From Thermodesulfobacteriota bacterium (lineage in GTDB: Bacteria > Desulfobacterota > WTBG01 > CAIYCZ01 > CAIRTM01): DNA of 32,980 bases. Position 1 is the first letter of the stretch. Each line of letters begins with the position of its first letter. This document shows positions 2,147 through 23,470 of the stretch, one piece after another. The position numbers and the translations under genes were made by a program. Location: assembly GCA_028282925.1 (NCBI GenBank), contig JANQGV010000254.1:1-32980 (forward strand), read 5' to 3'. The notes under the pieces were generated by a model. The model was not told the DNA's origin. It made no database searches and worked only from the letters and a program-made list of their open reading frames with translations.

Positions 2147-2244
2147 GAGTCTGGAGGAAAACACTCATCTTCGGCGTTGTGCGGGTTTCTCGTCACTCCT
2201 CACAATACCGCACGCCTTGAATCTGGACATTTTCCCCCAGCCTC
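2147..2244. repeat. Family A palindromic intergenic repeat, short variant
   Basis: A 98-bp element starts immediately after the meaB stop. Its ends form an imperfect inverted repeat, GAGTCTGGAGGAAAA against TTTTCCCCCAGCCTC. The interior shares GGCGTTGTGCG, TCGTCA and CGCACGCCTTG with the other three copies (4672, 17431, 22122). It lacks a 27-base block present in the 4672 copy, which there lies between two TCA triplets. It may fold as the mRNA 3' end. Confidence 0.8.
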
Positions 2245-2587
2245 TCAGGTGATTGAGTTTTTTAAAGCCTCATCACTATCCCCTTAATCTCCATTGAAAC
2301 CCCACGTTACATTCATTATCTGCACGCCATCGTTTTTGCAGAGAAACTCTTCACATGTAGCTTAGATGTATATACCGCTTGTTTGGCCAAATAATAACTG
2401 ATTAAACTATTTGCATGCTAAATAAAAGTATAATTATAGAAAATAAAAATACTTGACAATAAAAAGGTAAAACCATAGTTTCAAGTTGAATTTATGCAAT
2501 ATGTTGTTTCCTGTGTCTATTATGAGCTATATTTAATATAGACGGGGTAAAAAATATAACCTAAACATTTCAATAAGGGGGTTGCGT
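2245..2587. other. AT-rich intergenic region upstream of the acyl-CoA ligase
   Basis: No gene is visible here. The stretch is much more AT-rich than the flanking coding DNA. It holds a candidate promoter at 2453-2481 and a short inverted repeat, GTCTAT (2515-2520) with ATAGAC (2538-2543), that could be an operator. A strong Shine-Dalgarno AAGGGGG stands six or seven bases before the ATG at 2588. Confidence 0.6.
2453..2481 (+). promoter_or_regulatory. Candidate sigma-70 promoter for acyl-CoA ligase
   Basis: A perfect -35 TTGACA (2453-2458) is followed after 17 bases by TAGTTT (2476-2481), a fair -10. It lies about 105 bases before the ligase start in AT-rich DNA. The -10 is weak, so this is only probable. 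Confidence 0.45.
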
Positions 2588-4180: not shown

Positions 4181-4200
4181 CAAAAAGTGGGGAGCAGCCC

Positions 4201-4230
4201 ATGAAAATGCACGTACAGTATACATCATAG
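4201..4230 (+). CDS. Possible nine-codon minicistron before the GYD gene
   Basis: Between the ligase stop and the GYD gene there is a complete nine-codon frame, MKMHVQYTS then TAG, with GGGGAG six bases before its ATG. Its stop lies just before the GAGGAGGG ribosome site of the GYD gene, so it could couple translation. Frames of this size occur by chance. Confidence 0.2.
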   Translation: MKMHVQYTS

Positions 4231-4244
4231 AGAGGAGGGTCAGT

Positions 4245-4535
4245 ATGCCGGTTTATATCACACTTTGGAAATACACACGCGACGGCCTCATGGATATCAA
4301 GAACACAGCTTCACGGTTTGAAGCCGTCAAAAAGATTATCGAAAACAATGGAGGAAAGCTGTTACAGATTTACGGGCTTGTCGGGGAATATGATGTTATA
4401 ACCGTGATTCAGATGCCCAATAAAAGCGCAATGGCATCTACCATTTTGAAGATTTGTGCTTCGGGCAGAATTACTGCGCAAACGATGTCCGGAATACCGA
4501 TTGAAGAGTTTTTAAATCTTACCAAAGAGGTATAA
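4245..4535 (+). CDS. GYD domain protein
   Basis: A 96-residue protein matching the small ferredoxin-like-fold GYD family. The sequence shows the typical N-terminal beta strand (VYITLWKYTRDGL), a helix with AVKKIIENNGGKL, and the family's eponymous region as GEYDVITVIQMP (residues about 47-58). The family has no firmly known biochemical role; structurally it resembles ligand-sensing ACT/RAM-like domains. The start has a very good Shine-Dalgarno (GAGGAGGG). It sits 64 bases after the acyl-CoA ligase and before a terminator, so the two probably form an operon and the protein may sense or assist that pathway (inference). Confidence 0.82.
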   Translation: MPVYITLWKYTRDGLMDIKNTASRFEAVKKIIENNGGKLLQIYGLVGEYDVITVIQMPNKSAMASTILKICASGRITAQTMSGIPIEEFLNLTKEV

Positions 4536-4627
4536 AGCACAGGCAGCAATGTTTTGATACGGACTGCTCCCGTATGTATATTTTGAACGATGCGTGGTAA
4601 AAACGGTGCTTGACCGCCAGTCGACAT

Positions 4628-4665
4628 AAAAAGCCCCCTGTTGATATTTCAGCAGGGGGCTTTTT
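4628..4665 (+). terminator. Rho-independent terminator after the ligase/GYD operon
   Basis: A long stem with A-run on the left and T-run on the right: AAGCCCCCTG at 4631-4640 pairs with CAGGGGGCTT, the stem continues inward through TTGA/TCAG with one wobble around a TATT loop, and ends in TTTTT. The flanking A and T runs allow it to work in both directions. Confidence 0.9.
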
Positions 4666-4671
4666 ACCATC

Positions 4672-4796
4672 AGGCTGCTCAGAAACGCTCATCTGCGGCG
4701 TTGTGCGTATCGTTCGTCATTGCAGCGTACAACCAAGTACGCCTCACTCCTTACGATATCGCACGCCTTGTGCATCTGAACATTTCTGAGCAGCCT
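4672..4796. repeat. Family A palindromic intergenic repeat, full-length copy
   Basis: A 125-bp element with perfect 14-base terminal inverted repeats, AGGCTGCTCAGAAA (4672-4685) and TTTCTGAGCAGCCT (4783-4796). Inside it GCGTAC and GTACGC form a smaller stem, and GGCGTTGTGCG faces CGCACGCC. The whole unit can fold into one long imperfect hairpin. It lies just after a terminator and holds no gene. Confidence 0.88.
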
Positions 4797-4988
4797 TTTT
4801 AGGCGGTTTTTATTCTTTCAGCGTGTATGTATCTAATGATATCGCTAAAAATACTTGATATTTTTTGCCCTCCATACTAGAGTCATCTCTTAGACTAAAA
4901 CAGGTTTTGTAAGAAAAAGGTCATTGGATACGTACATAATAATGGTGCGTACGGTAAAGTACGCAATAACCGTAGGAGGGTAGAGGCC
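4797..4988. promoter_or_regulatory. Upstream region of mdh: weak promoter and leader hairpin
   Basis: TTGATA at 4855-4860 could be a -35, but no good -10 is seen at 17 bases (TAGAGT), so the promoter is weak or activator-dependent. In the presumed leader GCGTAC (4947-4952) and GTACGC (4959-4964) form a six-base stem with a six-base loop, a few bases before the Shine-Dalgarno TAGGAGGG. The same stem sequence occurs inside family A repeats. A role in translation control is possible but unproven. Confidence 0.35.
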
Positions 4989-5915
4989 ATGCGCAGTAAA
5001 GTTTCCGTTATAGGAGCAGGTAACGTGGGCGCCACCTGTGCGTTCAGAATTGCCGAACAGGGTTATGCAGATGTTGTTATGCTGGACATACTGGAAGGTG
5101 TTCCGCAGGGAAAGGCGCTTGACATGCTGCAAGCAGCCCCCATTATCGATACGGATGCGCTTATTACCGGTACAAACGATTATGCCGACACGGCCGGTTC
5201 CGAAATAGTGGTTATAACATCGGGTATGCCCCGCAAACCGGGTATGAGCCGTGACGACCTGGTGAAAGTCAATGCCGATATCGTTAAGCAGGTAACCGAG
5301 AATGTCGTGAAGCACTCCCCCGACTGTATCATCATCCTGGTTTCCAATCCGCTGGACGCAATGGTGCAGATGGCGCTGCATGTCAGCGGGTTCCCCCGGT
5401 CCCGCGTTTTAGGACAGTCGGGTGTGCTGGACAGCGCGCGCTTCCGTACCTTTCTGGCGCAGGAACTGAATGTGTCGGTTGAGGATGTGTTTGCCTGTGT
5501 GCTGGGCGGACATGGCGATACCATGGTTCCGGTTCCCCGCCTCAGCACAATCGGCGGTGTGCCGATTACCGACCTGCTTTCACAGGAAAGAATCGACGCC
5601 ATTGTGGAGCGAACGGTCAAGGGCGGGGCTGAGATTGTGGCACTCCTTAAAACCGGCAGTGCATACTACGCACCCGGCACGGCCGCTGCACAAATGGTTG
5701 ACGCGATCCTGCTCGACCGCAAAAAAATTCTTCCGACCGCTACACGGCTTGAGGGCGAATACGGCATCAACAATATCGTCGTCGGCGTGCCTGCCAAGCT
5801 TGGCAAGGCCGGTATCGAGCAGGTTATGGAAATACAGTTGACATCTGAAGAATCTGCGTCCCTGAAAAAATCGGCCGATGCGGTGCAGGCGCTCAACACC
5901 GTAATGGGAATCTAA
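4989..5915 (+). CDS. mdh: Malate dehydrogenase (LDH-like type)
   Basis: A 308-residue NAD-dependent dehydrogenase that oxidises malate to oxaloacetate, the last step of this window's pathway. The nucleotide fold shows GAGNVGA (residues 9-15) with the NAD-ribose acidic residue Asp33. The substrate loop carries two arginines, MPRKPGMSR (Arg82, Arg88); an Arg at the first position marks malate rather than lactate specificity. GVLDSARFR supplies the third arginine (Arg151) and GGHGDTMVP the catalytic His175. Length is normal. A strong TAGGAGGG precedes the ATG. Fumarase alpha begins about 50 bases downstream, consistent with one transcript. Confidence 0.96.
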
Positions 5916-5965
5916 AAACGAACCTGGTCACCGTACCAGCGTGCTCATTTTTTGGAGTGCTTTGT

Positions 5966-6811
5966 ATGAAAGAAATTCAGGCCGAAGAGATAACAAAAAC
6001 CGTTGCCCGGCTTTGTGAAGACGCCTGCCTGTACCTTGAGGAAGACGTGCTTGCGGTTCTAAAGCGGTCCCGCGAGCAGGAAGAATCGGAGGTCGCCCGT
6101 CATATACTGGACCAGATTCTTGAAAATGCCAGAATTGCCGCAGATGAGGGTATTCCGCTCTGCCAGGACTGCGGCGCTACGGTTGTTTTTGCGGACCTGG
6201 GACAGGATGTTCACATTACCGGCGGCGATTTCAACGAAGCCATCAGCCAGGGTGTCCGGCAGGGGTATGATGAGGGGTATCTGAGGAAATCAATGGTCGG
6301 TAAGCCGTTTTCTCAGCGGGTTAACACCAAGGACAATACTCCCCCGATTATTCATGCCCGGATCGTTCCCGGCGACCAGTTAAAAATAATAATCGCTCCC
6401 AAAGGCGGCGGCAGTGAAAATATGAGTAAATTCACCGTGCTGAAACCGGCACAGGGCCGACAGGCTGTTGTCGATTTTGTGGTGCAGGCAGTGGAGGATG
6501 CCGGCGGTAACCCCTGTCCGCCGTTGATCGTGGGAGTCGGTATCGGCGGCACCGCGGAAAAAGCAATGGGGCTTGCCAAGCGATCATTGATCAGGGAGGT
6601 CGGTCAAGCCAGCCCTGACCAGGAAGTTGCCGAACTCGAAGCGGAACTCTTGAAGCGTATTAATGCCCTGGGAATCGGTCCCCAGGGATTCGGGGGCAGG
6701 ACCACCGCCCTGGCGGTTCATGTAGAAACGTTTCCGAGTCATATCGCAAGCCTTCCTGTTGCGGTCAATATACAGTGTCACAGCGCCCGGCATAAAGAGG
6801 CGGTACTTTAA
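5966..6811 (+). CDS. Class I fumarate hydratase, alpha subunit
   Basis: A 281-residue N-terminal-type subunit of the oxygen-sensitive [4Fe-4S] fumarase, interconverting fumarate and malate. Probable cluster cysteines are visible in PLCQDCG (residue 66), NPCPP and QCHSARH near the end, with GGGSENMSK and VGVGIGGTAEKA in between. The family motif is usually CQDTG; here it is CQDCG. The ATG at 5966 is preferred over a GTG at 5957 because GGAG stands eight bases before it. The partner beta subunit is not adjacent: it lies at 11804-12382, beyond the SDH and Rieske/cytochrome b genes. A terminator follows at 6831. Confidence 0.94.
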   Translation: MKEIQAEEITKTVARLCEDACLYLEEDVLAVLKRSREQEESEVARHILDQILENARIAADEGIPLCQDCGATVVFADLGQDVHITGGDFNEAISQGVRQGYDEGYLRKSMVGKPFSQRVNTKDNTPPIIHARIVPGDQLKIIIAPKGGGSENMSKFTVLKPAQGRQAVVDFVVQAVEDAGGNPCPPLIVGVGIGGTAEKAMGLAKRSLIREVGQASPDQEVAELEAELLKRINALGIGPQGFGGRTTALAVHVETFPSHIASLPVAVNIQCHSARHKEAVL

Positions 6812-6830
6812 AAAGAGGTACTGTAAGGCT

Positions 6831-6873
6831 ACAGTCGAAACAGCTTCCGGCAGACACTGTTTCGGCTGTTTTT
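6831..6873 (+). terminator. Rho-independent terminator after fumarase alpha
   Basis: ACAGTCGAAACAG (6831-6843) pairs, with one mismatch, with CTGTTTCGGCTGT (6857-6869) and is followed by a T-run to 6873. It separates mdh-fumarase alpha from the SDH operon, or attenuates read-through. Confidence 0.85.
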
Positions 6874-6905
6874 ATCTGATGTAGTTTTTTTTGTTTTATA
6901 GATCT

Positions 6906-6933
6906 TTGCCGGATATGCCTGCAAGTGTATAAT
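6906..6933 (+). promoter_or_regulatory. Candidate sigma-70 promoter for the SDH operon
   Basis: TTGCCG (6906-6911) and a perfect TATAAT (6928-6933) are spaced by 16 bases, directly after the terminator at 6831-6873. Transcription would begin near 6940, giving a leader of about 85 bases before sdhC. Confidence 0.55.
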
Positions 6934-7023
6934 AGCTTGCAAAAATCAACAATTGGTGTAAAATTCGGGTTATTTGTATTTCCCTATAATTATTTTTCCA
7001 TAAAATATCTGGAGGGCTCGGAC

Positions 7024-7332
7024 ATGTTTGTGTGGGTATTTCACCGGATAAGCGGTTTGATTCTTATCTTTGGTATCGGTTTTAAGATGTACAGCGGTTT
7101 CGGGGTTGCAGGAGCGCTCGGCGAGGACATTATTCCTTACTGGACCCAGCTTCACAGCAATCTTGCCATAGACCTGGTTGTTATCCTGCTGTTCATCTAT
7201 CACAGCCTCTACGGGCTGCGGACATGTCTGGTCGACCTGGGCATTAAGAAAGAAAAACAGTTGTTCTGGGGACTGTCGGCCCTGGGGCTTGTTATCTACG
7301 CATTTGTTTGTTTTCAATGGTTGTTCGACTAA
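7024..7332 (+). CDS. sdhC: Succinate dehydrogenase cytochrome b subunit (SdhC-like)
   Basis: A 102-residue inner-membrane protein with three hydrophobic segments (about residues 1-22, 45-67, 80-99). The start of helix 1 carries HRISG, the quinone-site Ser/Arg motif of SdhC, and helix 2 ends in HSLYGLR, matching the heme-ligand histidine motif H-x-x-x-G-x-R (His60). The ATG at 7024 has CTGGAGGG before it; the longer upstream frame has no ribosome site. It anchors the SdhAB dimer and passes electrons to quinone. Only one anchor gene is present: 53 bases separate it from sdhA, so no SdhD-like partner is encoded here. Confidence 0.85.
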   Translation: MFVWVFHRISGLILIFGIGFKMYSGFGVAGALGEDIIPYWTQLHSNLAIDLVVILLFIYHSLYGLRTCLVDLGIKKEKQLFWGLSALGLVIYAFVCFQWLFD

Positions 7333-7385
7333 ATACAAGCGTTATGCGCAATGGATAAAACTGTTGACGAAATGCAGAGGACTAC

Positions 7386-9086
7386 ATGATTACACATGAT
7401 GTATTGATTATCGGTGCAGGGCTATCAGGCCTGCGGGCCGCGGTGGGGACGTCCCATACATTCGACACCGCGGTGCTTACCAAGGTTCATCCGGTCCGGT
7501 CCCATTCAATTGCGGCCCAGGGAGGTATGAACGCCGCGTTGGCCAATGTCGAAGGCTCAAAAGACGATACGACCGAGAAGCATACCTTCGATACCATCAA
7601 GGGTAGCGACTACCTGGCCGACCAGTCGGCTGCGCGGGTCATGTGCGAGCAGGCCCCGCTGCTGGTATATGAGCTGGAACATATGGGCTGTCCCTGGAGC
7701 AGGCTGGATGACGGCAAAATAGCCCAGCGTCCCTTCGGCGGCGCCGGGTACCCGCGCTGCTGTTATGCAGCCGACCGTAGCGGCCACATGGTGCTGCATA
7801 CCCTGTATGAAAAATCGGTTGAGCTCGGAGTGAAGGTCTATGAGGAGTGGCTGGCTCTCTCCCTGGCAGTTGACGGAGACCGGGTGCATGGGGTTGTGGC
7901 CATGGAGATGGCAACCGGCAAGCTGGAGATCATCAGTGCGAAAGTCGTGGTGCTTGCCACCGGCGGATACGGGCGTATTTTTTCCCGCAGCAGCAACGCC
8001 CTTATTTGTACCGGATCGGGTATTGCACTGGCCTATGAAGCCGGGGTGCCGGTTGAGGATATGGAGTTTGTGCAGTTTCACCCCACAACCCTGTACGGCA
8101 CCAATATTCTCATGAGCGAGGGTGCCCGTGGTGAAGGTGGTTACCTTGTAAACAACAAGGGCGAACGGTTCATGGAAAAGTACGCGCCCAGCGCAATGGA
8201 GCTTGCTCCCCGGGACATCGTTGCCCGCAGTATTCAGACCGAGGTTAACGAGGGCCGCGGCTTCAATGATGAATATGTCCACCTGGATTTACGCCATCTG
8301 GGACGTGAAAAAATCATTGAGCGGCTTCCGGGGATTCGTGAAATCGCGCTGGACTTTGCCCATATCGACCCCATTGATGAACCTGTTCCGGTTCAGCCGG
8401 GCCAGCATTACTCCATGGGTGGTATCGACACCGACGTGCATGGGGCCACCAGGGTGAAGGGACTGTACGCCGCCGGTGAATGTGCCTGTGTTTCTGTGCA
8501 TGGCGCCAACCGTCTGGGTGGCAACTCCCTGCTGGATACGACCGTTTTCGGAAAACTTGCCGGTGAAGCGATTGTGAAGTACCTTGAATCGGGGGTAGAG
8601 CCTCCCAAACAGACCGTACTGGCCGCTGAACTCAAGAAACAGGAAGAGGTTGTTCAGGAAATCTGTTCCCGGGAGAGTACCGGTGAAACCGTCGGGGCCA
8701 TACTTACCGAGATGCGCGATGTCATATTTAAAAAATGCGGAGTGTTCCGGCAAAGAGGGTTGCTTGAGGAAGCCCTTGCAAAAATCAAGGAGTTGCAGGA
8801 GCGCTATCAAAGGGTTTCCATTCAGAATAGTACCTCCCGCCGCTACAACCCCGGGCTGATGAACGTGCTTGAGTTGCGGGGCATGCTTGATATGGCGGAA
8901 CTGATTGTGGCGGGTGCAATACCGAGAGAAGAATGCCGCGGCTCGCACTGGCGGCTTGATTTTCCGGGTCGGGACGACAAAAACTGGCTGAAGCATACCA
9001 TGGCGGTATATTCGCCGGATGGACCCGTTTTCAGTTATACCGATGTGGAGATAACCGATTATGAGCCAAAAGAACGGAAATACTGA
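7386..9086 (+). CDS. sdhA: Succinate dehydrogenase flavoprotein subunit
   Basis: A 566-residue flavoprotein that oxidises succinate to fumarate, or reduces fumarate in reverse. The N-terminus shows the FAD dinucleotide motif IIGAGLSGLRAA and the covalent-FAD region VRSHSIAAQGGMNAA. Active-site stretches include FHPTTLYG, SEGARGEGGYLVN, HYSMGGIDTD and the C-terminal FAD contact GANRLGGNSLLD. Length is typical. The ATG has GAGG seven bases upstream. Its last 26 bases overlap the start of sdhB, so translation is coupled. Whether the enzyme works as SDH or as fumarate reductase in vivo cannot be told from sequence. Confidence 0.97.
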   Translation: MITHDVLIIGAGLSGLRAAVGTSHTFDTAVLTKVHPVRSHSIAAQGGMNAALANVEGSKDDTTEKHTFDTIKGSDYLADQSAARVMCEQAPLLVYELEHMGCPWSRLDDGKIAQRPFGGAGYPRCCYAADRSGHMVLHTLYEKSVELGVKVYEEWLALSLAVDGDRVHGVVAMEMATGKLEIISAKVVVLATGGYGRIFSRSSNALICTGSGIALAYEAGVPVEDMEFVQFHPTTLYGTNILMSEGARGEGGYLVNNKGERFMEKYAPSAMELAPRDIVARSIQTEVNEGRGFNDEYVHLDLRHLGREKIIERLPGIREIALDFAHIDPIDEPVPVQPGQHYSMGGIDTDVHGATRVKGLYAAGECACVSVHGANRLGGNSLLDTTVFGKLAGEAIVKYLESGVEPPKQTVLAAELKKQEEVVQEICSRESTGETVGAILTEMRDVIFKKCGVFRQRGLLEEALAKIKELQERYQRVSIQNSTSRRYNPGLMNVLELRGMLDMAELIVAGAIPREECRGSHWRLDFPGRDDKNWLKHTMAVYSPDGPVFSYTDVEITDYEPKERKY

Positions 9087-9816
9087 TACACGCTATACCT
9101 TTAAGATATTTCGCTACAATCCGGATGTTGACGCGCAACCGTACTATGATACGTTCGTCAAAAGCTACCCGCGCGGCACAACGGTTCTTGAAGCGCTTTT
9201 GAATATCCAGGAAACAGAGGATGACGGCATCGCCTTTCGCTTTTCCTGCAGAAGTGCCGTGTGCGGCTCCTGCGGTATGCTGGTCAACGGGGCGCCGGTA
9301 CTTGCCTGCCGGACACAGCTGGCAACCCTGATCGGTGATCAGGTGCTGATTGAGCCCCTGCCCAATATGGATATTGTCAAAGATCTTGTTGTCGATATGA
9401 AACCATTCTGGGAATCGTATCGCAGGGTGGAACCGTGGCTGCACGCCGATTCCGGCAACGAGCCCGAAAAAGAGCGGCTGCAGTCGCCCGACGACCTGCA
9501 TAAGCTCGATCCCTATATTAACTGTATTTTATGCGCCTGCTGTTACGGATCATGTCCGGTGCTGGGCATGGAAGAGGACTATGTCGGACCGGCTGCAATT
9601 TCAAAGCTGTTTCGGTTTATGCAGGATTCCCGCGATCAGCGCGGCGAGGGGTTCCTCGCAAAGTTCAACAATCAGCGGGGACTGTGGGCGTGTCATACCA
9701 TCTTCCGCTGTATCGATGCCTGTCCTAAGGATATTCGACCGACTGATACGATTGAAGCGCTGCGAAGGCGGCTCGTGGCGTACCGCTTTAAAAAATTCTT
9801 TCGGCTTGTGAAGTAA
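9061..9816 (+). CDS. sdhB: Succinate dehydrogenase iron-sulfur subunit
   Basis: A 251-residue electron-transfer subunit. All cluster ligands are present: [2Fe-2S] in SCRSAVCGSCGM plus Cys83 (Cys63, 68, 71, 83), [4Fe-4S] in CILCACCYGSCP (Cys155, 158, 161, then Cys217 or Cys221), and [3Fe-4S] in CHTIFRCIDACPKDI (Cys165, Cys211 and one of the later cysteines). It begins inside the end of sdhA in another frame. It carries electrons from FAD to the quinone site formed with SdhC. The next gene, a Rieske protein, starts 17 bases later behind AAGGAG, which indicates one operon. Confidence 0.97.
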   Translation: MSQKNGNTDTRYTFKIFRYNPDVDAQPYYDTFVKSYPRGTTVLEALLNIQETEDDGIAFRFSCRSAVCGSCGMLVNGAPVLACRTQLATLIGDQVLIEPLPNMDIVKDLVVDMKPFWESYRRVEPWLHADSGNEPEKERLQSPDDLHKLDPYINCILCACCYGSCPVLGMEEDYVGPAAISKLFRFMQDSRDQRGEGFLAKFNNQRGLWACHTIFRCIDACPKDIRPTDTIEALRRRLVAYRFKKFFRLVK

Positions 9817-9833
9817 TTGTATAAGGAGATGCC

Positions 9834-10298
9834 ATGAGGCTTAAAGAGTCACTGCTGTCACGGAGAGATTTTTTCACAGGCCTGCTGGGAGGCGGACTTG
9901 CTGCGCTGGCGGGCTTTATCGGATATCCGGTTGTCAGGTTTCTCTTTCATCGAAAAAAAATCCCTCTGCCCAAGGGGGTTACCATTGCGATGACGGACAT
10001 TGAAAAAATGGCCCCCAACAGCGCGGCCTATTTTACCTACGGCAATTTGCCGGGCGTCCTGCTGAAAACCGAAACCGGGGAGTTGCGGGCCTTTTCCGCC
10101 AAATGTACGCATCTGGACTGTAACGTGCAGTACCGGCCCGAGGAGAAAAAGTTTTTCTGTGCGTGCCACGATGGGTATTTTGACGACCAGGGGTTGAATA
10201 TCGCCGGACCGCCTCCGCGGCCCATGGATGTCTTCAGCGTTGAACCCGGAGAAGAGAACCTGGTGGTGCGCTATCAGGAAGAAAGCAAACATACATAA
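9834..10298 (+). CDS. Rieske [2Fe-2S] protein of a cytochrome bc/b6f-type complex
   Basis: A 154-residue membrane-anchored Rieske protein. The N-terminus has SRRDFFTG and one hydrophobic helix, as in Tat-exported QcrA/PetC. Box I is CTHLDC (residues 91-96) and box II is CACHDGYFD (109-117). Ligands Cys91, His93, Cys109 and His112 and the disulfide pair Cys96/Cys111 are all present; GPPPRPM is the proline loop. The serine and tyrosine that hydrogen-bond to high-potential Rieske clusters are replaced by Gly114 and Phe116, which predicts a low midpoint potential suited to menaquinol. It lies between sdhB and cytochrome b. No cytochrome c1 or f gene is in the operon, so the electron acceptor is unknown. 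Confidence 0.93.
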   Translation: MRLKESLLSRRDFFTGLLGGGLAALAGFIGYPVVRFLFHRKKIPLPKGVTIAMTDIEKMAPNSAAYFTYGNLPGVLLKTETGELRAFSAKCTHLDCNVQYRPEEKKFFCACHDGYFDDQGLNIAGPPPRPMDVFSVEPGEENLVVRYQEESKHT

Positions 10299-10325
10299 AG
10301 AATAATATATACGGAAGAATCAGCA

Positions 10326-11402
10326 ATGATTGATGTCAAAAAAATGATAAGTGAGCGTGTCGGCCTGGGTGCAGTCGTTTCGCTTGCCAGGAAAAAAATG
10401 GTGCCCATGCACCGCCACTCCGTTTGGTATTATATGGGCGGCATGCTGCTTTTTCTGTTTATGGTTCAACTGGTAACCGGCCCGCTCCTGCTTTTTTTCT
10501 ATAAGCCCTCGGCTGAATCCGCGTATCAAAGCATACAGGAGATTATGGTTACCGTGCCGTATGGCTGGCTGATACGCTCGGTCCACCACTGGGCGAGCAA
10601 CCTGATGATTGTGGTTGCCTTTGTTCACTTTTTTTCAACGTTTCTCATGAAAGCCTATCGCCGTCCGCGTGAGGTGACCTGGCTGACCGGAATGGCTCTT
10701 TTCGTGGTCGTGCTCTTCCTGGGATACACCGGATATACCCTGCCGTTTGATGAGCGGGCCTGGTTTGCCCTCAATGTCGGTACCGATATGCCGGGAGCCA
10801 TTCCCGTGGTGGGTCAATACATGCTTGAGTTTTTGCGCGGCGGTCCGACCGTTGGAGATCATACCCTGAACCGGTTTTTTGCTCTGCATGTCGGGATATT
10901 GCCCCTGGCCTTGATGGTTGTGCTGGGCGTGCATCTTCTGCTGGTGCAACTGCACGGCATGAGCGTCCCGAAATCGGTAGAGGAGGAGTCGGAGTCAAAG
11001 AAGGAGCCGATCCCCGCAAAACCCATGTTCCCGCATCTGGTGTGGCATGATATCATAAACTGCCTGATTCTTTTCGGCATGCTTGTCACCCTTGCGGTGT
11101 TTATGCCCTCAACCCTCGAAGCCCCGATCGACTACCTGAAACCTGCGCCGGAGGGTGTGAAGCCGGACTGGTTTTTTCTGTGGGTATATCAGATATTGAA
11201 ATGGATGCCGACCTACGTGCTCGGTCTGGAAGGGGAAGTGGTCGGTATTGTCGGCCTTTCGGTTGTAGCAGGTTTTGTTGCCCTTGCGCCGTTTGTCGAC
11301 TGGAAATCGCAACGCAATCAGCGCAGCCCCCTGTTTACCGTCATAGGAATCGCCAGCCTGCTTGTTTTTCTGCTCTGTACGGTAATCGGGTTTGTTTATT
11401 AA
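10326..11402 (+). CDS. Cytochrome b of bc/b6f-type complex (b6 and subunit IV fused)
   Basis: A 358-residue polytopic protein forming the quinol-oxidising core with the Rieske subunit. The N-terminal half is b6-like, with heme histidines at 87, 101, 188 and 203; the 14-residue gap between the last two is the b6f/menaquinol type rather than the mitochondrial 13. Residues 236-358 match subunit IV and carry the Qo-loop motif PDWF (280-283), a form of PEWY. A charged linker rich in Glu and Lys (217-232) joins the halves. The position equal to the b6 cysteine that binds heme cn is aromatic here, so that extra heme is not expected. The start is about 27 bases after the Rieske stop. Confidence 0.94.
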   Translation: MIDVKKMISERVGLGAVVSLARKKMVPMHRHSVWYYMGGMLLFLFMVQLVTGPLLLFFYKPSAESAYQSIQEIMVTVPYGWLIRSVHHWASNLMIVVAFVHFFSTFLMKAYRRPREVTWLTGMALFVVVLFLGYTGYTLPFDERAWFALNVGTDMPGAIPVVGQYMLEFLRGGPTVGDHTLNRFFALHVGILPLALMVVLGVHLLLVQLHGMSVPKSVEEESESKKEPIPAKPMFPHLVWHDIINCLILFGMLVTLAVFMPSTLEAPIDYLKPAPEGVKPDWFFLWVYQILKWMPTYVLGLEGEVVGIVGLSVVAGFVALAPFVDWKSQRNQRSPLFTVIGIASLLVFLLCTVIGFVY

Positions 11403-11415
11403 GAAGGAGACCGGT

Positions 11416-11754
11416 ATGACTCGAAACAGACTGATCATGGTTTTAACAGTAGCTGTGTTTTTAACGGGTATAGTGCTTTTCCCCGTTGTAAACGGAAAGC
11501 CGGTATGGTGCCAGGAGCCGGCCGCCGTGATGACGCTTGAGTCGACTGAAATAGAAGATGAAGAAGCGGCAGGGGACGCTGTAACGATTACCGCTGAACA
11601 GGTTGAAGAAGCGCGGGAGACTACCAGCGATCGAATATACGGCCTTGTCGGCCTGTGGGCGCTTATTGCTGTGGTTATTTACATCGTGAGGTTTCAGGTG
11701 AAGGACGATGAGAGGCTCTACCGGACCGGTTACTATAACCGCGATATCGAGTAG
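11416..11754 (+). CDS. Small two-helix membrane protein, candidate extra subunit of the SDH/bc complex
   Basis: I do not recognise a family. The 112-residue product has an N-terminal hydrophobic segment (residues 5-25, possibly a signal anchor), a very acidic middle (about 40-70, many Glu and Asp), and a second helix at about 75-92 followed by a charged tail ending in YNRDIE. It starts 13 bases after cytochrome b, with AAGGAG well placed, and precedes fumarase beta. Its position and topology suggest a small accessory subunit, as many respiratory complexes have, but nothing in the sequence binds a cofactor except possibly the single Cys32. Confidence 0.7.
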   Translation: MTRNRLIMVLTVAVFLTGIVLFPVVNGKPVWCQEPAAVMTLESTEIEDEEAAGDAVTITAEQVEEARETTSDRIYGLVGLWALIAVVIYIVRFQVKDDERLYRTGYYNRDIE

Positions 11755-11803
11755 CCTTTCTGACGCTCAGGACGGCTGGTTTTAATGAATAAGGAGTATA
11801 CCG

Positions 11804-12382
11804 TTGCCGAAACACATTACTTCTCCAATGACCCAGGATGTACTGGTAGACCTGAAAGCCGGTGACCAGGTGCTGATAAGCGGTACCCTGTACGTGGCCC
11901 GCGACGCCGCACATAAACGGCTTGTAGCAGCTCTGGATACAGGTGAAGAACTTCCACTGGATATTGCCGGGCAGACCATTTATTATATGGGTCCCTCCCC
12001 GGCAAAACCGGGCCAGGTGATCGGGGCTGCAGGTCCGACAACCAGCGGCCGCATGGATGCCTATGCACCGCGCCTGATGGCGGAAGGACTGAAAGGAATG
12101 ATCGGAAAAGGCGCCAGAACCGCAGCCGTAAAAGAGGCCATGCAGGAATATAAAGCGGTTTATTTTGCCGCGCTGGGTGGCGCGGGAGCTTTAATAGCAA
12201 AATGTATCAAAAAGGCGGAAGTTGTCGCTTATGACGATCTCGGTGCCGAAGCCCTGCGGCGACTTGAAGTTGAGAATCTTCCAGCTACTGTTGTGAACGA
12301 TATTTACGGAGGAGACCTGTACGAAGAAGGCAAGATGCGGTATCGTCTTGACCCGGACGGAGCGGCCGGGGCTGATACGTAG
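11804..12382 (+). CDS. Class I fumarate hydratase, beta subunit
   Basis: A 192-residue C-terminal-type fumarase subunit that completes the enzyme with the product of 5966-6811. Typical stretches are GDQVLISGTLYVARDAAHKR, YYMGPSPAKPGQVIG, AGPTTSGRMDAY, GMIGKG, FAALGGAGALIAKC and VVNDIYGGDLYEEG. The start is TTG at 11804, chosen because AAGGAG lies seven bases upstream and the conserved N-terminus begins there. It is the last metabolic gene of the SDH-Rieske-cytochrome b operon. Tartrate dehydratase beta is the close alternative family, but SDH and MDH as neighbours favour fumarase. Confidence 0.93.
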   Translation: MPKHITSPMTQDVLVDLKAGDQVLISGTLYVARDAAHKRLVAALDTGEELPLDIAGQTIYYMGPSPAKPGQVIGAAGPTTSGRMDAYAPRLMAEGLKGMIGKGARTAAVKEAMQEYKAVYFAALGGAGALIAKCIKKAEVVAYDDLGAEALRRLEVENLPATVVNDIYGGDLYEEGKMRYRLDPDGAAGADT

Positions 12383-12424
12383 CACAGAGAGTGTGACGCT
12401 GCCATACGAGAGGGGGTATCAACA

Positions 12425-14308
12425 TTGTCCCGGAATGTACCCGGCATGGATGATTTTGGTTCGGCACATGATATGAACAAACAGGAAAGCAAGGACAATG
12501 CGGACTCCGAGCCGTATTTGGAAAATGCCGACCTTCACGACGAGTACATCAAGGCGCTTCAGTCCGAAGACGATAAAAAGGCCGGGCGTATACAGTGGCA
12601 AATAGCCGTAGCCAATCAAAAACTCATCTGGTGGTTTGCCAGAAAGCTGTGGCGCAAGTGGAGCCCCTCCTGTTTAAGCACCCAAGACCTGGCCCATTAC
12701 GGGATGTTTGGTGTGTTACGGGCCGTGGAGAAATACAAACCGGAATTCGACACAAAACTGTCCTCTTATGCCGGATGGTGGATTCGCAGATATATCGAAT
12801 CGGCCATCTTTGAAAACGGTCCCACCATCCGTATCCCGGAATACCGTATCAATCAAAAAGCACACATCGATGCCGCAACCCTTGAGCTTCTGGAAAACGG
12901 GCTGGAACCCACCCTGCAGAGCATTGCCGATGAACTGAATCGCAAAGAGCATGCACGCAGCCTGGAAAATCCCGGCCGAAAAAAAACGGTCTGGACGCCT
13001 GAAATCGTCGACGAGGTAAACCAGACGACGATTCACATCATGAGCAGTATCGACAAGCCGGTTTACGAAGACGGCGCCGACAACCTGCACAGCTATATAT
13101 CGGACGCCAATAACTCAATGGTATATCCGGAGCAATCCTCAAGCGCTCCTTTTATGAGGAAAGGGTTCCGGAAAATACTGGAATCTTCAGGGTTGTCGGG
13201 CCGTGACCGGCTCATGCTGGAACTGTACTTTTACGGCGAGTCGCACAATAAAAACGAGGTTTCCCGTTTATTCGGCATAACAAAGGGTGCTTTTACCGAT
13301 ATTCTTGAAAGCTTCGAAGAAGATTTTCCCGATATTTTTAAAATGGTCAATGCCCGTCGGGAAAACCTGATGGATATCCTGAAATTCTGTTTTTTGCCGG
13401 AAAAAAACAGAATTGCTCTGGATGTTTTTTTTGCCGGACCATTGCACAGTGATACGGATGCGGCGCAGCAGGGACGCATGCCTGAAAAACAGTTTGCCTC
13501 AGTTCGCAAAACATTCGAAAAACGGTATCCAGAACTTTTCAGTATTGCTGTTTCAAAGCCGGATCTGTTTAAAAGTATCGTTGCGTTTTCACGCCTGCCT
13601 CGAAACCAGCGGGCGATGCTCGGCGTTTACTTTTGTGGAGACGATCTGACCAAGCAGGATGTCGGGGTGCTTTGCGGCGTCAGCCGGGAGCGTGTTCGTC
13701 AGATCGTGGAGAGCTTTACTGAGACGTTTAAAGGACCGTTGAGCCGTTTGTTTTTGCGGGATTTTGTCAGCCCACGGGAAGTATGTGAAAAACATATAAG
13801 CAAAAAATACGAGCGATATGCTCGTGATATCGATCATTTTTTCAGGGAACGTGGCCTGGAGAAATCGGCCGTTATCCTGAAACAGCTTTTTTTCCAGAGA
13901 ATGCACCATAAGGATATCTCCACTCATATGGGTGGAATACCGCCGGGAACAATTTCCAACCGCTTGAAGCGTGCTTCTTCGAAATTTACGGATATTCCGG
14001 AACACCTGGCCCCCTTTTTTTGCGGTGGTAATACGGGGCTCAGCCCAAAAGAAATCTTCGCCCGTCAGATATGGGATTTCCTGCCGTTAACCGTACAGGA
14101 AGAATTCCGCGAAGGATTAGCCGATGAAGATAAAGCCATTTTTATGGCGCGGCTTGCGTTGCAGGGGGAGCACCCCAAGCTGAAAGAACTTGTGCAACGG
14201 CTCGGTAAGAAGAATGCGGGCGAAGTCAGCGTTGCGCTGGAGAACATAATTCAAAACTTTGTGGAATTTGCGGGTGAATACCTGAAACAGCACGATCAAC
14301 AGGGCTAA
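12425..14308 (+). CDS. Sigma-70-like protein with tandem region-4-like repeats
   Basis: A 627-residue protein. Residues 60-140 are sigma region 2: QDLAHYGMFGVLRAVEKYKP, SSYAGWWIRRYIESAI and TIRIPEYR match the core-binding and -10 recognition motifs. Residues 155-172 look like region 3.0/3.1, and SSIDKPVYEDGADNLHSYISD (about 207-227) like region 3.2. Instead of one region 4 there are at least four similar units, with leading leucines at 257, 324, 391 (exactly 67 apart) and 478, and perhaps a fifth near 555. Only the third keeps a canonical recognition helix, GVSRERVRQI. A TTG start is preferred because AGAGGGGG stands at good spacing; the next methionine is eight residues in. It lies 42 bases after fumarase beta and may share its transcript. 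The function of the array is unknown. Confidence 0.82.
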   Translation: MSRNVPGMDDFGSAHDMNKQESKDNADSEPYLENADLHDEYIKALQSEDDKKAGRIQWQIAVANQKLIWWFARKLWRKWSPSCLSTQDLAHYGMFGVLRAVEKYKPEFDTKLSSYAGWWIRRYIESAIFENGPTIRIPEYRINQKAHIDAATLELLENGLEPTLQSIADELNRKEHARSLENPGRKKTVWTPEIVDEVNQTTIHIMSSIDKPVYEDGADNLHSYISDANNSMVYPEQSSSAPFMRKGFRKILESSGLSGRDRLMLELYFYGESHNKNEVSRLFGITKGAFTDILESFEEDFPDIFKMVNARRENLMDILKFCFLPEKNRIALDVFFAGPLHSDTDAAQQGRMPEKQFASVRKTFEKRYPELFSIAVSKPDLFKSIVAFSRLPRNQRAMLGVYFCGDDLTKQDVGVLCGVSRERVRQIVESFTETFKGPLSRLFLRDFVSPREVCEKHISKKYERYARDIDHFFRERGLEKSAVILKQLFFQRMHHKDISTHMGGIPPGTISNRLKRASSKFTDIPEHLAPFFCGGNTGLSPKEIFARQIWDFLPLTVQEEFREGLADEDKAIFMARLALQGEHPKLKELVQRLGKKNAGEVSVALENIIQNFVEFAGEYLKQHDQQG

Positions 14309-14397
14309 AACGTACACATCTCAGCAGTGAACCGGGCTGCTTTTGCGCCTGTCAAGGCCCTCTATCAAAACAGCGATACCCCAGGGCGTCCTTGTCT

Positions 14398-15870
14398 ATG
14401 AAAAAATATCCTTTTAAAAATGACGGCATCAATAGCCTCTTTTTTTTGTGCGGGGTTTTATTCTGGATTGCATTCCCGGCACTATCGGTTCCGGTGTTTG
14501 CCGACACTATCTATTTTAAAAACGGTACACGCCTTGATATCCCGGAAGCATGGGAAGAGGACGGACAGGTCAAATGCGTGCTGTACGGCCAGGTCGTGAG
14601 CTATCCGGTTGAAGACGTGGAACGAATTGAAAAAGAGGAGGTCGGTAAGCCTCCAGATCCACCGTCGGAAGCGTTGCAGCAAGCGCAGCGCTATCATATC
14701 CTTGCCGCTCAACATGCACGGGACGGCAAATGGTACGATGCCATTGCCTTTGAGCGGAAGGCCGTTGCCCTTGCTCCGGAAAATGCCGGATATAAAAAGA
14801 AACTTTCCCTGTTTTGTAATAATTATGGCATTGAATTGAAAAAAAAGAACAAGCTGCGGGAAGCCCTCAGCTATCTGCAGCAGTCCCTTACGTATGCGCC
14901 GGATCAGTTGCAGGTGAAAAAAAACATTGCCGCTCTCTATGTTCTCCAGGCGACAGCGGCGTGTGATAAAAGTGATTACCGCACCTGTGAAAAACTTTTG
15001 TCCAAAGCACAGCAGTATGATGATGCCAATGCGGAACTGTTTTTTCTGAAAGGCAAAGCAGCATATGCCGCCGACAACAATGAAAAAGCACGTGAATACT
15101 GGCTGCAGGCGTTAAAGATCGACCCCACCAGTCGGCATGTGCGAGCATACCTGCATAAGCTTGGACAGGAGGACTCGGTGGAGTCCGACCTGGCTTCAAG
15201 GGATACCGCCTGGTTTAAATTGAAATTTGAGGCTGAAGAAAACAGTGAAGTTGCCCGGGAAACGTTGAGAGTGCTACGTGATGCTGTAGAAAAAGTAGGA
15301 CGGGATCTGGATTTTCAGCTGCAGGATACCATTACCGTTATTGTGCACCCTCAGAGCGATTTAAAGCAGCTCGAATACTTTCCGGACTGGGCTGCCGGGG
15401 TATATGACGGCAAGATCCGTATCGGCGCTGATTTGTTTAAAAAGTCGATCTATGCCAAATCCATACTCTATCATGAGTATACCCATGCGGTTGTGTACCG
15501 GATTGCGGGCAAGGGGGTGCCCCTCTGGCTCAATGAAGGTCTGGCAGAGTATGAGGGTGCGCCTTTTTTTAAACCAAAAACCCGCAGGTTCAGGAATATC
15601 CTTTTGAGAAAGGCCCGGCGGCAGAACAAATTGATTTCCTTCTCAATGCTTGAGAACGTCAATCTGTCATTTCTCAACATGCTGACGATTCGGCTTGTGT
15701 ATGCCCAGTCTGAGTCCTTTGTCACTTATCTCATCAATAGATATTCGCTGTATGATATGCGCACCGTTCTGGAACGTATCGGGAAGGGGCATGATTTTCA
15801 GAAAATAGTTGTGGAGGTGTTCGGCGAGGACCTGGCGAGCCTGGAAAAGAAGTGGCGGGATTCTCTGTAG
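14398..15870 (+). CDS. Exported TPR protein with Peptidase_MA-like zinc protease domain
   Basis: A 490-residue secreted or periplasmic protein. A signal peptide ends near VFA/DT (residue 35). A short beta module follows (DTIYFKNGTRLDIP). Residues about 90-255 hold four tetratricopeptide-like repeats, such as KWYDAIAFERKAVALAPEN and KAREYWLQALKIDPTS. The C-terminal domain (about 280-490) is a gluzincin: HEYTH (359-363) gives two zinc histidines and the catalytic Glu, and NEGLAEYEG provides the third ligand. The ATG at 14398 is preferred over a TTG six bases upstream; the ribosome site is weak. The substrate is unknown. The gene faces the response regulator at 15914 tail to tail. Confidence 0.85.
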   Translation: MKKYPFKNDGINSLFFLCGVLFWIAFPALSVPVFADTIYFKNGTRLDIPEAWEEDGQVKCVLYGQVVSYPVEDVERIEKEEVGKPPDPPSEALQQAQRYHILAAQHARDGKWYDAIAFERKAVALAPENAGYKKKLSLFCNNYGIELKKKNKLREALSYLQQSLTYAPDQLQVKKNIAALYVLQATAACDKSDYRTCEKLLSKAQQYDDANAELFFLKGKAAYAADNNEKAREYWLQALKIDPTSRHVRAYLHKLGQEDSVESDLASRDTAWFKLKFEAEENSEVARETLRVLRDAVEKVGRDLDFQLQDTITVIVHPQSDLKQLEYFPDWAAGVYDGKIRIGADLFKKSIYAKSILYHEYTHAVVYRIAGKGVPLWLNEGLAEYEGAPFFKPKTRRFRNILLRKARRQNKLISFSMLENVNLSFLNMLTIRLVYAQSESFVTYLINRYSLYDMRTVLERIGKGHDFQKIVVEVFGEDLASLEKKWRDSL

Positions 15871-15913: not shown

Positions 15914-16459
15914 CTAGGAATCGAGTATTTTCAAGGCCTTGTTAAGCCGTTTTTCCATATCTACGTTTTTGTTGGTAAGGGCCTGCTCCAGCCGATTGAA
16001 TTTATGCTGCAGCTTGGCAACCATCATTTGCAGGTCGTGCATTGCCTGGGCCTTGTTCTGTTCCGTACCGTCAAGTATTTCGCGCTGTTCCTTATCCCGG
16101 CCGATTTTTTCCAGGCGAAGATACAGCTCTTCAGTATTGAACGGCTTGCACAGGTAGTCATCGGCACCCATACGCATGGCCTGAATGGCCGAATCAATGG
16201 ATGCATACGCCGTCATGATAATGACCGGTATCGTACAATCCTTTTTCTTTACCGCTTCAAGGACGGCCAGACCATCGGCGCTTCCGGGCATCATCAGGTC
16301 GGTCAGCACGACATCATAGTCATTTTCAGCAATTTTTTCTATTGCTTCATCGCCGCTGGCCATGGTAACAATTTCGTAACCTTCTTTTTCCAGAAGTGCT
16401 TTCGTGTAGCCGCGAATATCTTCATCATCGTCAACCACTGCTATGTTAAGGTGATTCAC
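15914..16459 (-). CDS. Response regulator: receiver domain plus coiled-coil tail
   Basis: The receiver domain occupies about 120 residues. Numbered from an ATG at 16462, it has the acidic pocket at residues 11-13, phosphoacceptor Asp55 (LTDLMMPG), Thr84 (MTAY) and Lys106 (CKPF). No DNA-binding or enzymatic output follows; the last 60 residues are charged and heptad-like, probably a coiled coil for docking to a partner. AGGAGG is only two bases from that ATG but five from the next codon, GTG at 16457-16459, so GTG is the likelier start (181 residues). No kinase is adjacent; a soluble hybrid kinase lies at 29683. Confidence 0.9.
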   Translation of the reverse strand: MNHLNIAVVDDDEDIRGYTKALLEKEGYEIVTMASGDEAIEKIAENDYDVVLTDLMMPGSADGLAVLEAVKKKDCTIPVIIMTAYASIDSAIQAMRMGADDYLCKPFNTEELYLRLEKIGRDKEQREILDGTEQNKAQAMHDLQMMVAKLQHKFNRLEQALTNKNVDMEKRLNKALKILDS

Positions 16460-16644
16460 CATGCCCTCCTATGGTTGCTGAAAGATTACGTTAACCACGT
16501 GCCGTACACTCGGTAAAATCTATTTTTTAAGAATATAACGCAGTATTTTTCTCATTGCAATAGTATTATGAAAATTCCCAACCGGCCGCCTGTCGGCGCG
16601 TGGTCCGGAGGGAGGCTCTCCTGGGGCAAGGGTGAATATGCGGT

Positions 16645-17430: not shown

Positions 17431-17674
17431 GAGGCTGCCGGATACTGTCCATCTCCTGTGTTGCGCTCAGCTTTCGTCACTGCGGAGTACAGTCAAGTAC
17501 GCCTCATGATCAACAGAAAAAACAATAAAAAGAGTTTTTCCTGTTGAAGGAAACAATGCACGTACGTGCCCTTTGTTTTCCCATTTCAGGGAAAACAAGG
17601 CAACCGCTACGCGGTTGTTTATTGCCACCTCAAGGTTTCGCGCGCCCTGTATCCGAACATTCTCCGGCAGCCTC
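17431..17674. repeat. Family A repeat copy interrupted by a 126-bp structured insertion
   Basis: Ends GAGGCTGCCGGA and TCTCCGGCAGCCTC match the other copies, and the interior AAGTACGCCTCATG and CGCGCCCTGTATCCGAACATT are also family A. Between them lies extra DNA bounded by CCTCA at 17502-17506 and 17628-17632. The insert contains an imperfect stem (17511-17523 with 17534-17546), the palindrome GCACGTACGTGC (17558-17569), a ten-base stem TTGTTTTCCC/GGGAAAACAA (17573-17598) and CAACCGC/GCGGTTG (17601-17617). Confidence 0.82.
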
Positions 17675-17737
17675 TCATCATGGGGGAGTTCAAAAGCCTT
17701 CCAGAAATGTCGCCATTTTCCTCGTCCGCTTGTTTGC

Positions 17738-17766
17738 TTGACAGCCTTTTTTTTACTGCTTATACT
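17738..17766 (+). promoter_or_regulatory. Strong sigma-70-like promoter for the thioesterase
   Basis: TTGACA (17738-17743), a 17-base spacer and TATACT (17761-17766) form a near-consensus promoter. The predicted start near 17773 leaves a 40-base leader before the ATG at 17812, with AAAGGAGA as ribosome site. Confidence 0.75.
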
Positions 17767-17811
17767 GCGTGCTGATATGTATGTGACGGTGTTGAGAAAA
17801 GGAGATGTCCT

Positions 17812-18240
17812 ATGGAAAACCATGATCATTTGATTCTGGTGAAAGAAAAGTATAATGAAGATACCTTCAGCCACCATCTTGGTATTGTGCTTGATGAACT
17901 TACCGACGATGACATTATGATGCATATGGACCTGAGGCCCGACATGCTGAACCTCTATAACCGACCGCATGGGGGAGTTATCTACGCACTGGCCGATGCA
18001 GCTTTTTCCGTTATCGCCAACAGCAGGAATAATATATCCGTGGCGCTGGATTGTACCATCACCTATCACAACGGTCCTGACGTCGGTCAGACACTGTATG
18101 TGCATGGCCGTACCCTGTCGGTTTCAAAACGAGTGGGCAGTTACCTGTTCGATGTGTATTGCATGGAGGACGGTGAGCGAAAAAAAATTGCTACCATGAA
18201 GGGTACTGCCTTCCGCACCGGCCGAGCCATTGTTGATTAG
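17812..18240 (+). CDS. Hot-dog fold thioesterase, PaaI/4HBT type
   Basis: A 142-residue single-domain acyl-CoA thioesterase. The hot-dog signature is NRPHGGVIYALADAAFS (about residues 49-65), where HGG and the Ala-Asp on the central helix form the thioester site in PaaI-type enzymes. VALDCTITYHNG continues the sheet and FRTGRA closes it. Length and motif match PaaI-like enzymes, which hydrolyse aryl- or short acyl-CoA esters; the substrate cannot be predicted. It has its own strong promoter, and a family B repeat follows its stop. Confidence 0.85.
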   Translation: MENHDHLILVKEKYNEDTFSHHLGIVLDELTDDDIMMHMDLRPDMLNLYNRPHGGVIYALADAAFSVIANSRNNISVALDCTITYHNGPDVGQTLYVHGRTLSVSKRVGSYLFDVYCMEDGERKKIATMKGTAFRTGRAIVD

Positions 18241-22382: not shown

Positions 22383-23144
22383 CTATTCATAGGGGCATTC
22401 CCGCAGCATCCGCTCAATATAAAAGCCTCTGTCCATAACCAGCTTACCGTCGGTATTATAGGCTAGAATGTCAACACGGTTGAATTTCGGGCCGATATCG
22501 GGCTGCGTTATACGTGCCTGTACCTGCTTCAGGTATTTGATGCTGAAGTCTGATCCGCTTGTATAATCAACGGGCATACCGGAATACAGCAGGGTTTTGG
22601 GCCAGACATCGTATACCGGTGGAATGCTTTCGCGGTTGCTGGCTACAACAAAGACATAGCCGGACGCTGTTTTGTTCTTGCCGGTTGTGTTGAGTAATTT
22701 GAAAGAGCAGTTGAAGTCAAGAGACAGATTTATGCGGGTAACGTCCACGTTTTCAATATCCAGCACAGAAGGTCCGGGCAATGCTGTGTCGGTGTTGATC
22801 TCGCCGTCGAGAATTGTCTGGGAAGGGCCGTTGCTGCCTTTACCGCTGACATCAAAATGATTGAAGCGTTTTTTGATAATATCATCGGCCCACTTTCTGT
22901 AGTCGTCGGTTTCCCTTTTTTCGGCCTGCAGTTGCCGGACGCTTTCAGTCAACATGGCAACGGTTTTTTTACTGGATGTGCTGCGTTGCAGGATGTGCAA
23001 GTATCCGGCCGTGCTTATTATGCTGGCGCATACCGTACAGATCACAATTGTCGCCAGGGTTTTTATGAAGGAATAACTGATTCGGGCGGATATGCGCCTG
23101 CCGCTTTTTTCCGACATAAACAGAATCGTCATTTTAGGGTCCAT
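22383..23144 (-). CDS. Single-pass membrane protein with coiled coil, unknown function
   Basis: A 253-residue protein. The first 25 residues (MDPKMTILFMSEKSGRRISARIS) resemble the cytoplasmic start of M23-type cell-wall peptidases, followed by one membrane helix (about 28-50) and a coiled coil (SSKKTVAMLTESVRQLQAEKRE). The remainder, which should be periplasmic, is beta-rich and has no M23 zinc motif. It contains LSLDFNCSFKLLNT and a stretch near DVWPKTLLYSGMPV. The start MDPKM at 23144 is preferred because GTGAGG lies before it; six extra codons upstream lack a site. I cannot name its role; a cell-envelope function is likely. Confidence 0.75.
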   Translation of the reverse strand: MDPKMTILFMSEKSGRRISARISYSFIKTLATIVICTVCASIISTAGYLHILQRSTSSKKTVAMLTESVRQLQAEKRETDDYRKWADDIIKKRFNHFDVSGKGSNGPSQTILDGEINTDTALPGPSVLDIENVDVTRINLSLDFNCSFKLLNTTGKNKTASGYVFVVASNRESIPPVYDVWPKTLLYSGMPVDYTSGSDFSIKYLKQVQARITQPDIGPKFNRVDILAYNTDGKLVMDRGFYIERMLRECPYE

Positions 23145-23470
23145 TGGTAACCTCACCATCAATCGTTATGCTAATAGGTCTTTTTTGCAAAGTGTTTATA
23201 TTTCATACATCGGATGGTTTTTTGTGAAGTTAAGTATTTTTCATAAAAAAAAGGAAGCATTTCCAGTCTGTTGTCGGATAGTGTCCAATATGTTGTGGGT
23301 TGTTTTACATTGACACACAAGGCCACTTTCGTTATAGTTATAAATTTCAACTATTTGATATTTGTTTTTTTCTTGCACAAGCCTTTTAGTGATACAGTGA
23401 GGATTTCTCTAAAAGGACACCACAGGTGTGTCCCCTAATCGAAAGTATGATGGATTCTGGAGAAACGGCT
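23145..23470. other. Divergent intergenic region before the AOR-family gene
   Basis: This stretch separates the minus-strand membrane protein from the oxidoreductase. It holds a strong promoter at 23310-23338 and otherwise AT-rich DNA. No gene is seen. Confidence 0.6.
23310..23338 (+). promoter_or_regulatory. Strong sigma-70-like promoter for the AOR-family gene
   Basis: TTGACA (23310-23315), a 17-base spacer and TATAGT (23333-23338) are near consensus. Transcription would start near 23345, giving a leader of about 125 bases before the ATG at 23471. Confidence 0.7.

Follow-up and report, generated by a model that had tools for sequence, protein, structure and literature searches.

The window analysed here (32,980 nt of contig JANQGV010000254.1, assembly GCA_028282925.1, from a Thermodesulfobacteriota bacterium) contains at 12425-14308 on the plus strand a 627-residue open reading frame encoding a sigma-70-family protein. 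Its TTG start lies 8 nt downstream of a Shine-Dalgarno-like GAGGGGG (12410-12416, plus strand). Since the same genome encodes a separate RpoD, two RpoS-like factors and RpoH, the protein is an additional sigma factor. The two RpoS-like factors are distinct (L003, 1123-2496, and L004, 1045-2418, both minus strand), and both groups are present in several genomes of the family. Upstream of the sigma gene, window positions 2-12382 carry genes that all run in one direction on the plus strand, for methylmalonyl-CoA mutase, MeaB, acyl-CoA ligase, malate dehydrogenase and fumarase alpha, then SdhA, SdhB, cytochrome b and fumarase beta; the last of them stops 42 nt short of the sigma gene. This set resembles a propionate/TCA-pathway cluster; the link of the sigma gene to it is not kept in the orthologues. 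No structured RNA was found at the sigma locus of the window and a promoter scan gave matches no more frequent than in shuffled sequence.

Region 2 (residues 61-145; 12605-12859, this and all features of the gene below on the plus strand) was placed by alignment and by Pfam Sigma70_r2 at E 2e-9 (PF04542, 37.5 bits against a cut-off of 24); the same model finds both orthologues. Alignment also shows a 4-residue insertion, common to a probable sister family with a single region 4 that is described below. E. coli residue numbers are used as assigned by alignment to the genome's own RpoD. The melting aromatics of region 2.3, Y115, W118 and W119 (E. coli Y430, W433 and W434), are invariant in all three array-bearing proteins. 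Other contacts have changed. In region 2.2, H91 and Y92 align in place of Q406 and E407, which have a role in core binding. The region 2.4 positions responsible for reading the -12 base pair are occupied differently than in RpoD (Q437 to R122, T440 to E125 or D, R441 to S126), and the -10 preference should therefore differ.

The segment that follows (residues 146-244; 12860-13156) aligns with a diverged region 3 and the sigma finger. Pfam region 3 (PF04539) is silent in this zone, which has about 17 extra residues, yet the alignment is continuous and RpoD models such as TIGR02393 run through it, covering residues 77-287 (region 2, diverged region 3, sigma finger and unit 1 of the array). The sequence-only reading had described regions 2 and 3 as well conserved; this is true of region 2 (79% identity to an orthologue) but not of region 3 (46%, Pfam Sigma70_r3 undetected). 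Pfam likewise gave no match to region 1.2 (PF00140) in the window protein; this model does match the RpoD, RpoS-like factors and RpoH of the same genome.

C-terminal to the finger, the promoter-reading end of the protein has been copied in tandem, in at least three and probably four or five units. The repeat unit comprises 67 residues and consists of a linker helix, a region-4.1 helix and a helix-turn-helix. Unit 1 (U1, residues 245-311, core from L257; 13157-13357) is region-4-like and strongly conserved, has an acidic recognition helix and in alignments follows the sigma finger without a break, the position that region 4 holds in RpoD. Unit 2 (U2, residues 312-378, core from L324; 13358-13558) is a degenerate copy. 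Unit 3 (U3, residues 379-445, core from L391; 13559-13759) is a canonical region 4, including the recognition helix SRERVRQI (residues 420-427; 13682-13705), which is invariant in 3/3 proteins and corresponds to about residues 583-590 of E. coli sigma-70. Unit 4 (U4, residues 466-532, core from L478; 13820-14020) is basic, with an invariant GG..PGT..NRL.RA motif, and is a probable region-4 unit by its Pfam matches, its similarity to U1, its predicted helices and its charge. A possible unit 5 (U5, residues 553-622, core from about L565; 14081-14290) is weak in its likeness and acidic to neutral. The unit starts at 257, 324 and 391, the PDIF (302-305) and PELF (369-372) motifs and the GVSRERVRQI helix were all as first read from the sequence. 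The fourth unit, placed then at 478, is probable rather than secure; the possible fifth was absent from that reading.

The repeat was evaluated by comparing residues 240-627 with themselves. The best ungapped match falls at a lag of exactly 67 and pairs residues 245-338 with 312-405 (94 residues, BLOSUM62 score 115); the next are at lag 134 (score 87) and lag 220 (U1 against U4, score 50). The maximum scores of 500 shuffles had a mean of 30, a 95th percentile of 38 and a highest value of 53. Pairs of units compared against 1000 shuffles gave z-scores of 13 (U1-U2), 15 (U1-U3), 8.5 (U2-U3), 6 (U1-U4) and 3.5 (U4-U5).

Profile searches tie the repeat to region 4. Pfam reports three Sigma70_r4 stretches in the window protein (E 4e-14 together). 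Single units were matched by Sigma70_r4 in U1 (E 0.009) and U3 (E 6e-8; 32.5 bits against a cut-off of 24.1) and by Sigma70_r4_2 in U4 (E 0.02), and there is thus region 4 similarity outside U3. Profiles of canonical region 4 with U3 pick up the window protein's U1 at P 8e-10, a U1 and U3 profile finds its U2 at P 1.5e-10, and the latter also recovers RpoD, RpoS and RpoH through their canonical region 4 (P 1e-7 to 3e-6). In profile comparison U3 matches canonical region 4 at 95%. This test is weak for U4 (P about 0.02-0.05) and U5 (P about 3e-4 to 9e-3), although Sigma70_r4_2 matches at U4 in 3/3 proteins (E 0.005, 4e-5 and 0.002). Judged by such sequence comparisons, the assignment of U1-U3 as region-4 units is secure, that of U4 probable and that of U5 possible.

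AlphaFold2 models were built on three sequences. They are poor for regions 2-3; the array is usable, with a mean pLDDT of 79 when folded alone. Helices are predicted at 241-254, 259-270, 276-282 and 287-300 in U1; at 312-322, 326-337 and 354-367 in U2, which misses the third; at 379-389, 393-403, 410-417 and 421-434 in U3; and at 450-475, 479-489, 495-501 and 507-518 in U4. For U5 the model has two helices in 541-564, another at 567-578 and then a long helix with low confidence at 581-594. The predicted helices repeat in register across units, in agreement with the repeat assignment, and do not form one non-repetitive domain. Foldseek with the full model returned weak sigma-factor matches (best E 0.002, TM-scores about 0.2 or less). 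The array alone gave nothing significant against the PDB and viral models; its best region-4 match was 8cyf chain B, a SigA region 4-flap chimera (E 4.2, probability 0.60).

Two orthologues with the same layout, 46-48% identical over their whole length, were found; their two genomes belong to a single further genus of the family. Across 395 sampled genomes of the phylum, a whole-protein profile finds only the three array proteins at E 1e-25 and an array-only profile only the same three at E 1e-5. The scans of GTDB contigs and IMG/VR were keyed to short conserved peptides, so that remote relatives may have escaped them; on the GTDB contigs they matched the two orthologues only, both in metagenome-assembled genomes labelled Deltaproteobacteria, and no array was found in the IMG/VR, phage or plasmid records searched. 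A phage or plasmid origin was considered and rejected, as the only matches were ordinary RpoD-like N-terminal ones and the PHROG match was to a generic sigma family. Gene neighbourhood is not conserved between the window and the orthologues: the window gene comes after fumarase beta, whereas the orthologues follow a phosphohexomutase-like gene and precede a TilS-like gene (named by reading the translations).

The orthologues also bear on the idea that the repeat is due to chance or to misassembly, to which we attach almost no probability. The same layout occurs in independent assemblies, the repeat score is far above that of shuffled sequences, and the copies are too diverged in DNA for an assembly duplication; between them, orthologues and shuffles rule out an artefact. 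The unit copies are mutually unlike in DNA and there is no DNA-level tandem repeat at the locus, from which it follows that the duplication is old. The original proposal of a region-4-like array on a sigma-70 factor is supported by (i) repeat statistics; (ii) profile matches; (iii) two diverged orthologues; (iv) repeated predicted helices.

The units have evolved under unequal selection. Between the two closest orthologues (L013 and L014, 76% identical overall), dN/dS is 0.05 for region 2, 0.11 for U1, 0.84 for U2 (95% interval 0.47-1.5), 0.07 for U3, 0.21 for U4 and 0.49 for U5 (0.23-1.0). The equivalent of U2 (window 13358-13558) is only 40% identical between the two and is four residues shorter in both than in the window protein. 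These values, with the loss of residues in U2, indicate that U1 and U3 are strongly constrained, U4 moderately, U5 little and U2 hardly; by such sequence measures U2 evolves near neutrality and is decaying in the sister genus.

No part of the protein is better conserved than region 2, which is 95% identical between the two closest orthologues. This, the low dN/dS and the invariant melting residues Y115, W118 and W119 argue against the protein being a sigma-like DNA-binding or decoy protein that has lost sigma function. The changed core contact in region 2.2, the changed promoter residues of region 2.4 and the absence of both Pfam regions 1.2 and 3 would fit such a loss, which we nonetheless consider improbable. 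Region 2, region 4 and the melting aromatics place the protein, as far as sequence can, in the sigma-70 superfamily.

In E. coli sigma-70, R584, E585, R588 and Q589 contact or affect -35 DNA (PMC2613000, PMC8407463). Their equivalents in U3 (R421, E422, R425 and Q426) are invariant in 3/3 proteins and occur in no other unit, as the first reading had noted for the canonical helix. The recognition helix of U1 has a net charge of -4 in the window protein. Net charge is +3 to +5 in U3, +4 to +10 in U4 and -4 to 0 in U5. The earlier idea of extra units touching several -35-like sites finds no support in that form: the -35-reading residues survive in U3 alone, U2 is decaying, U1 has an acidic recognition helix, and the one further candidate with a basic charge is U4.

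A sigma factor of 384-430 residues with a single region 4 occurs in three further genera of the family (L008, 790-2082, minus strand; L009, 1285-2535, plus strand; L018, 146-1300, plus strand). Like the array family, these proteins have the same N-terminal helix, carry four inserted residues in region 2 and have lost Q406/E407 in region 2.2; they join it in a tree of the part before region 4 (92/88), a grouping to be read with caution given the long branches. They differ in that their one region 4, which has a canonical helix, is interrupted between 4.1 and 4.2 by about 26 inserted residues, and in a region 3 that Pfam detects. Among 198 genomes of the phylum this type is confined to the family, and each genome searched has the array type, the single type or neither, never both. 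On this sequence evidence the three genes probably encode the sister sigma factor of the array family. As a probable sister with one region 4 occurs in three other genera, duplication within this small lineage is the probable origin of the array. It is likely that we are dealing with one lineage-specific sigma factor, in which region 4 and the preceding helix were duplicated at least twice before the array-bearing genera split.

Comparison of the three proteins shows the array itself, its conservation in the two orthologues, the unequal selection on its units and a single putative -35 reader of canonical type, which is not in first place. We tentatively favour, at a little under even confidence, a lineage-specific alternative sigma-70-family factor in which region 4 was duplicated in tandem with its linker helix and the copies took different roles. 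U1, directly after the sigma finger, would take the usual place of region 4 on the beta-flap, having lost -35 reading. U2 would be a spacer, now eroding, and U3 the true -35 reader, displaced by two units. The basic U4, with or without U5, may touch a regulator or more distal upstream DNA. Such a holoenzyme would recognise either a -35-like element at an unusual distance or a -35 together with a second upstream element. The position of region 4 on the beta-flap helps to set promoter spacing in ordinary sigma-70 (PMC2613000), and altered spacing or a composite promoter is predicted on this basis. The specific arrangement in which beta-flap docking and -35 reading are split between region-4 copies and a further copy reads a second upstream element, giving composite promoters of non-standard spacing, is a possibility we hold with more reserve. 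Counting against the favoured model are H91/Y92 in region 2.2, the weak likeness of U4 and U5 to region 4, the weak fold matches and the derivation of the models from three sequences.

The main rival keeps U3 as the working region 4, seated on the beta-flap and reading an ordinary -35, with U1-U2 looped out as an elongated linker and U4-U5 as a C-terminal extension. U3 alone is canonical in both region 4.1 and region 4.2 (Pfam E 6e-8; profile comparison 95%), which speaks for this arrangement. However, U1 is conserved about as strongly as U3 (0.11 vs 0.07), which a passive linker would not need, and it is U1, not U3, that adjoins the sigma finger. We judge this rival unlikely, if still to be reckoned with.

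In a regulatory role, the extra units would provide the binding site of a ligand or partner, or would act as a built-in anti-sigma module by folding back onto U3 or region 2. At least 26 groups of ECF factors are reported to have regulatory N- or C-terminal extensions (PMC8999054), U5 is acidic to neutral, and none of the neighbouring genes was identified as coding for an anti-sigma factor. Against this, the extensions described for ECF factors are SnoaL, TPR or cysteine-rich domains, not copies of region 4, and Pfam finds no ligand domain in the window protein or the two orthologues. By analogy a regulatory use of U4-U5 is possible; as an account of the extra units as a whole it seems to us rather unlikely. 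The resemblance to ECF factors with extra domains (PMC8999054) lies in the additional C-terminal domains and their possible regulatory role. The window protein differs in that its extension consists of region-4 copies and in possessing region 3 and a sigma-finger segment; some 100 residues of region 3 and finger separate region 2 from U1, unlike the ECF layout of regions 2 and 4 joined by a short linker.

With RpoD and RpoS (groups 1-2) the protein shares the melting aromatics of region 2, a sigma-finger segment and, in U3, the canonical RERVRQI helix. It differs in having three to five region-4 units where they have one, in lacking a detectable region 1.1, region 1.2 or Pfam region 3, and in its altered region 2.2 and 2.4 contacts. 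Curated equivalog models score it well below their cut-offs (RpoD 86.5 against 354 bits; RpoS 67.8 against 378.7). A single region 4 is the usual sigma-70 layout rather than a strict requirement of the superfamily, and the window protein departs from it. MzaA, the sigma factor of the MZA anti-phage system, resembles the protein over region 2-3 only; identity with MzaA was rejected, as 62.3 bits is far under the model cut-off of 800 bits. Literature searches, which covered few subscription journals, returned no paper on tandem region 4 domains in a sigma factor; a single phrase match proved to be unrelated. Within the searches made, we found no described sigma factor or family with a tandem region-4 architecture; the earlier statement that no such group is known agrees with all of them, though searches cannot prove absence.

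Docking on the beta-flap and reading the -35 element are both tasks of region 4, which partly accounts for the fixed spacing of bacterial promoters (PMC2613000). Duplicated and diverging region 4 units, if the proposal is true, would constitute a natural experiment separating docking from -35 reading, and could offer a way towards promoters with changed spacing. Such a protein would also show that promoter specificity can evolve through domain duplication within one sigma factor, besides gene duplication.

Elsewhere in the window, two minus-strand open frames, of 212 residues (17467-18105) and 259 residues (22383-23162), match no Pfam family at E 0.001. The gene that comes straight after the sigma gene, 14392-15870 on the plus strand, encodes a protein with TPR and Peptidase_MA_2 domains, and close by, at 15914-16462 on the minus strand, lies a short response regulator of 182 residues, with a receiver domain and a short C-terminal tail.
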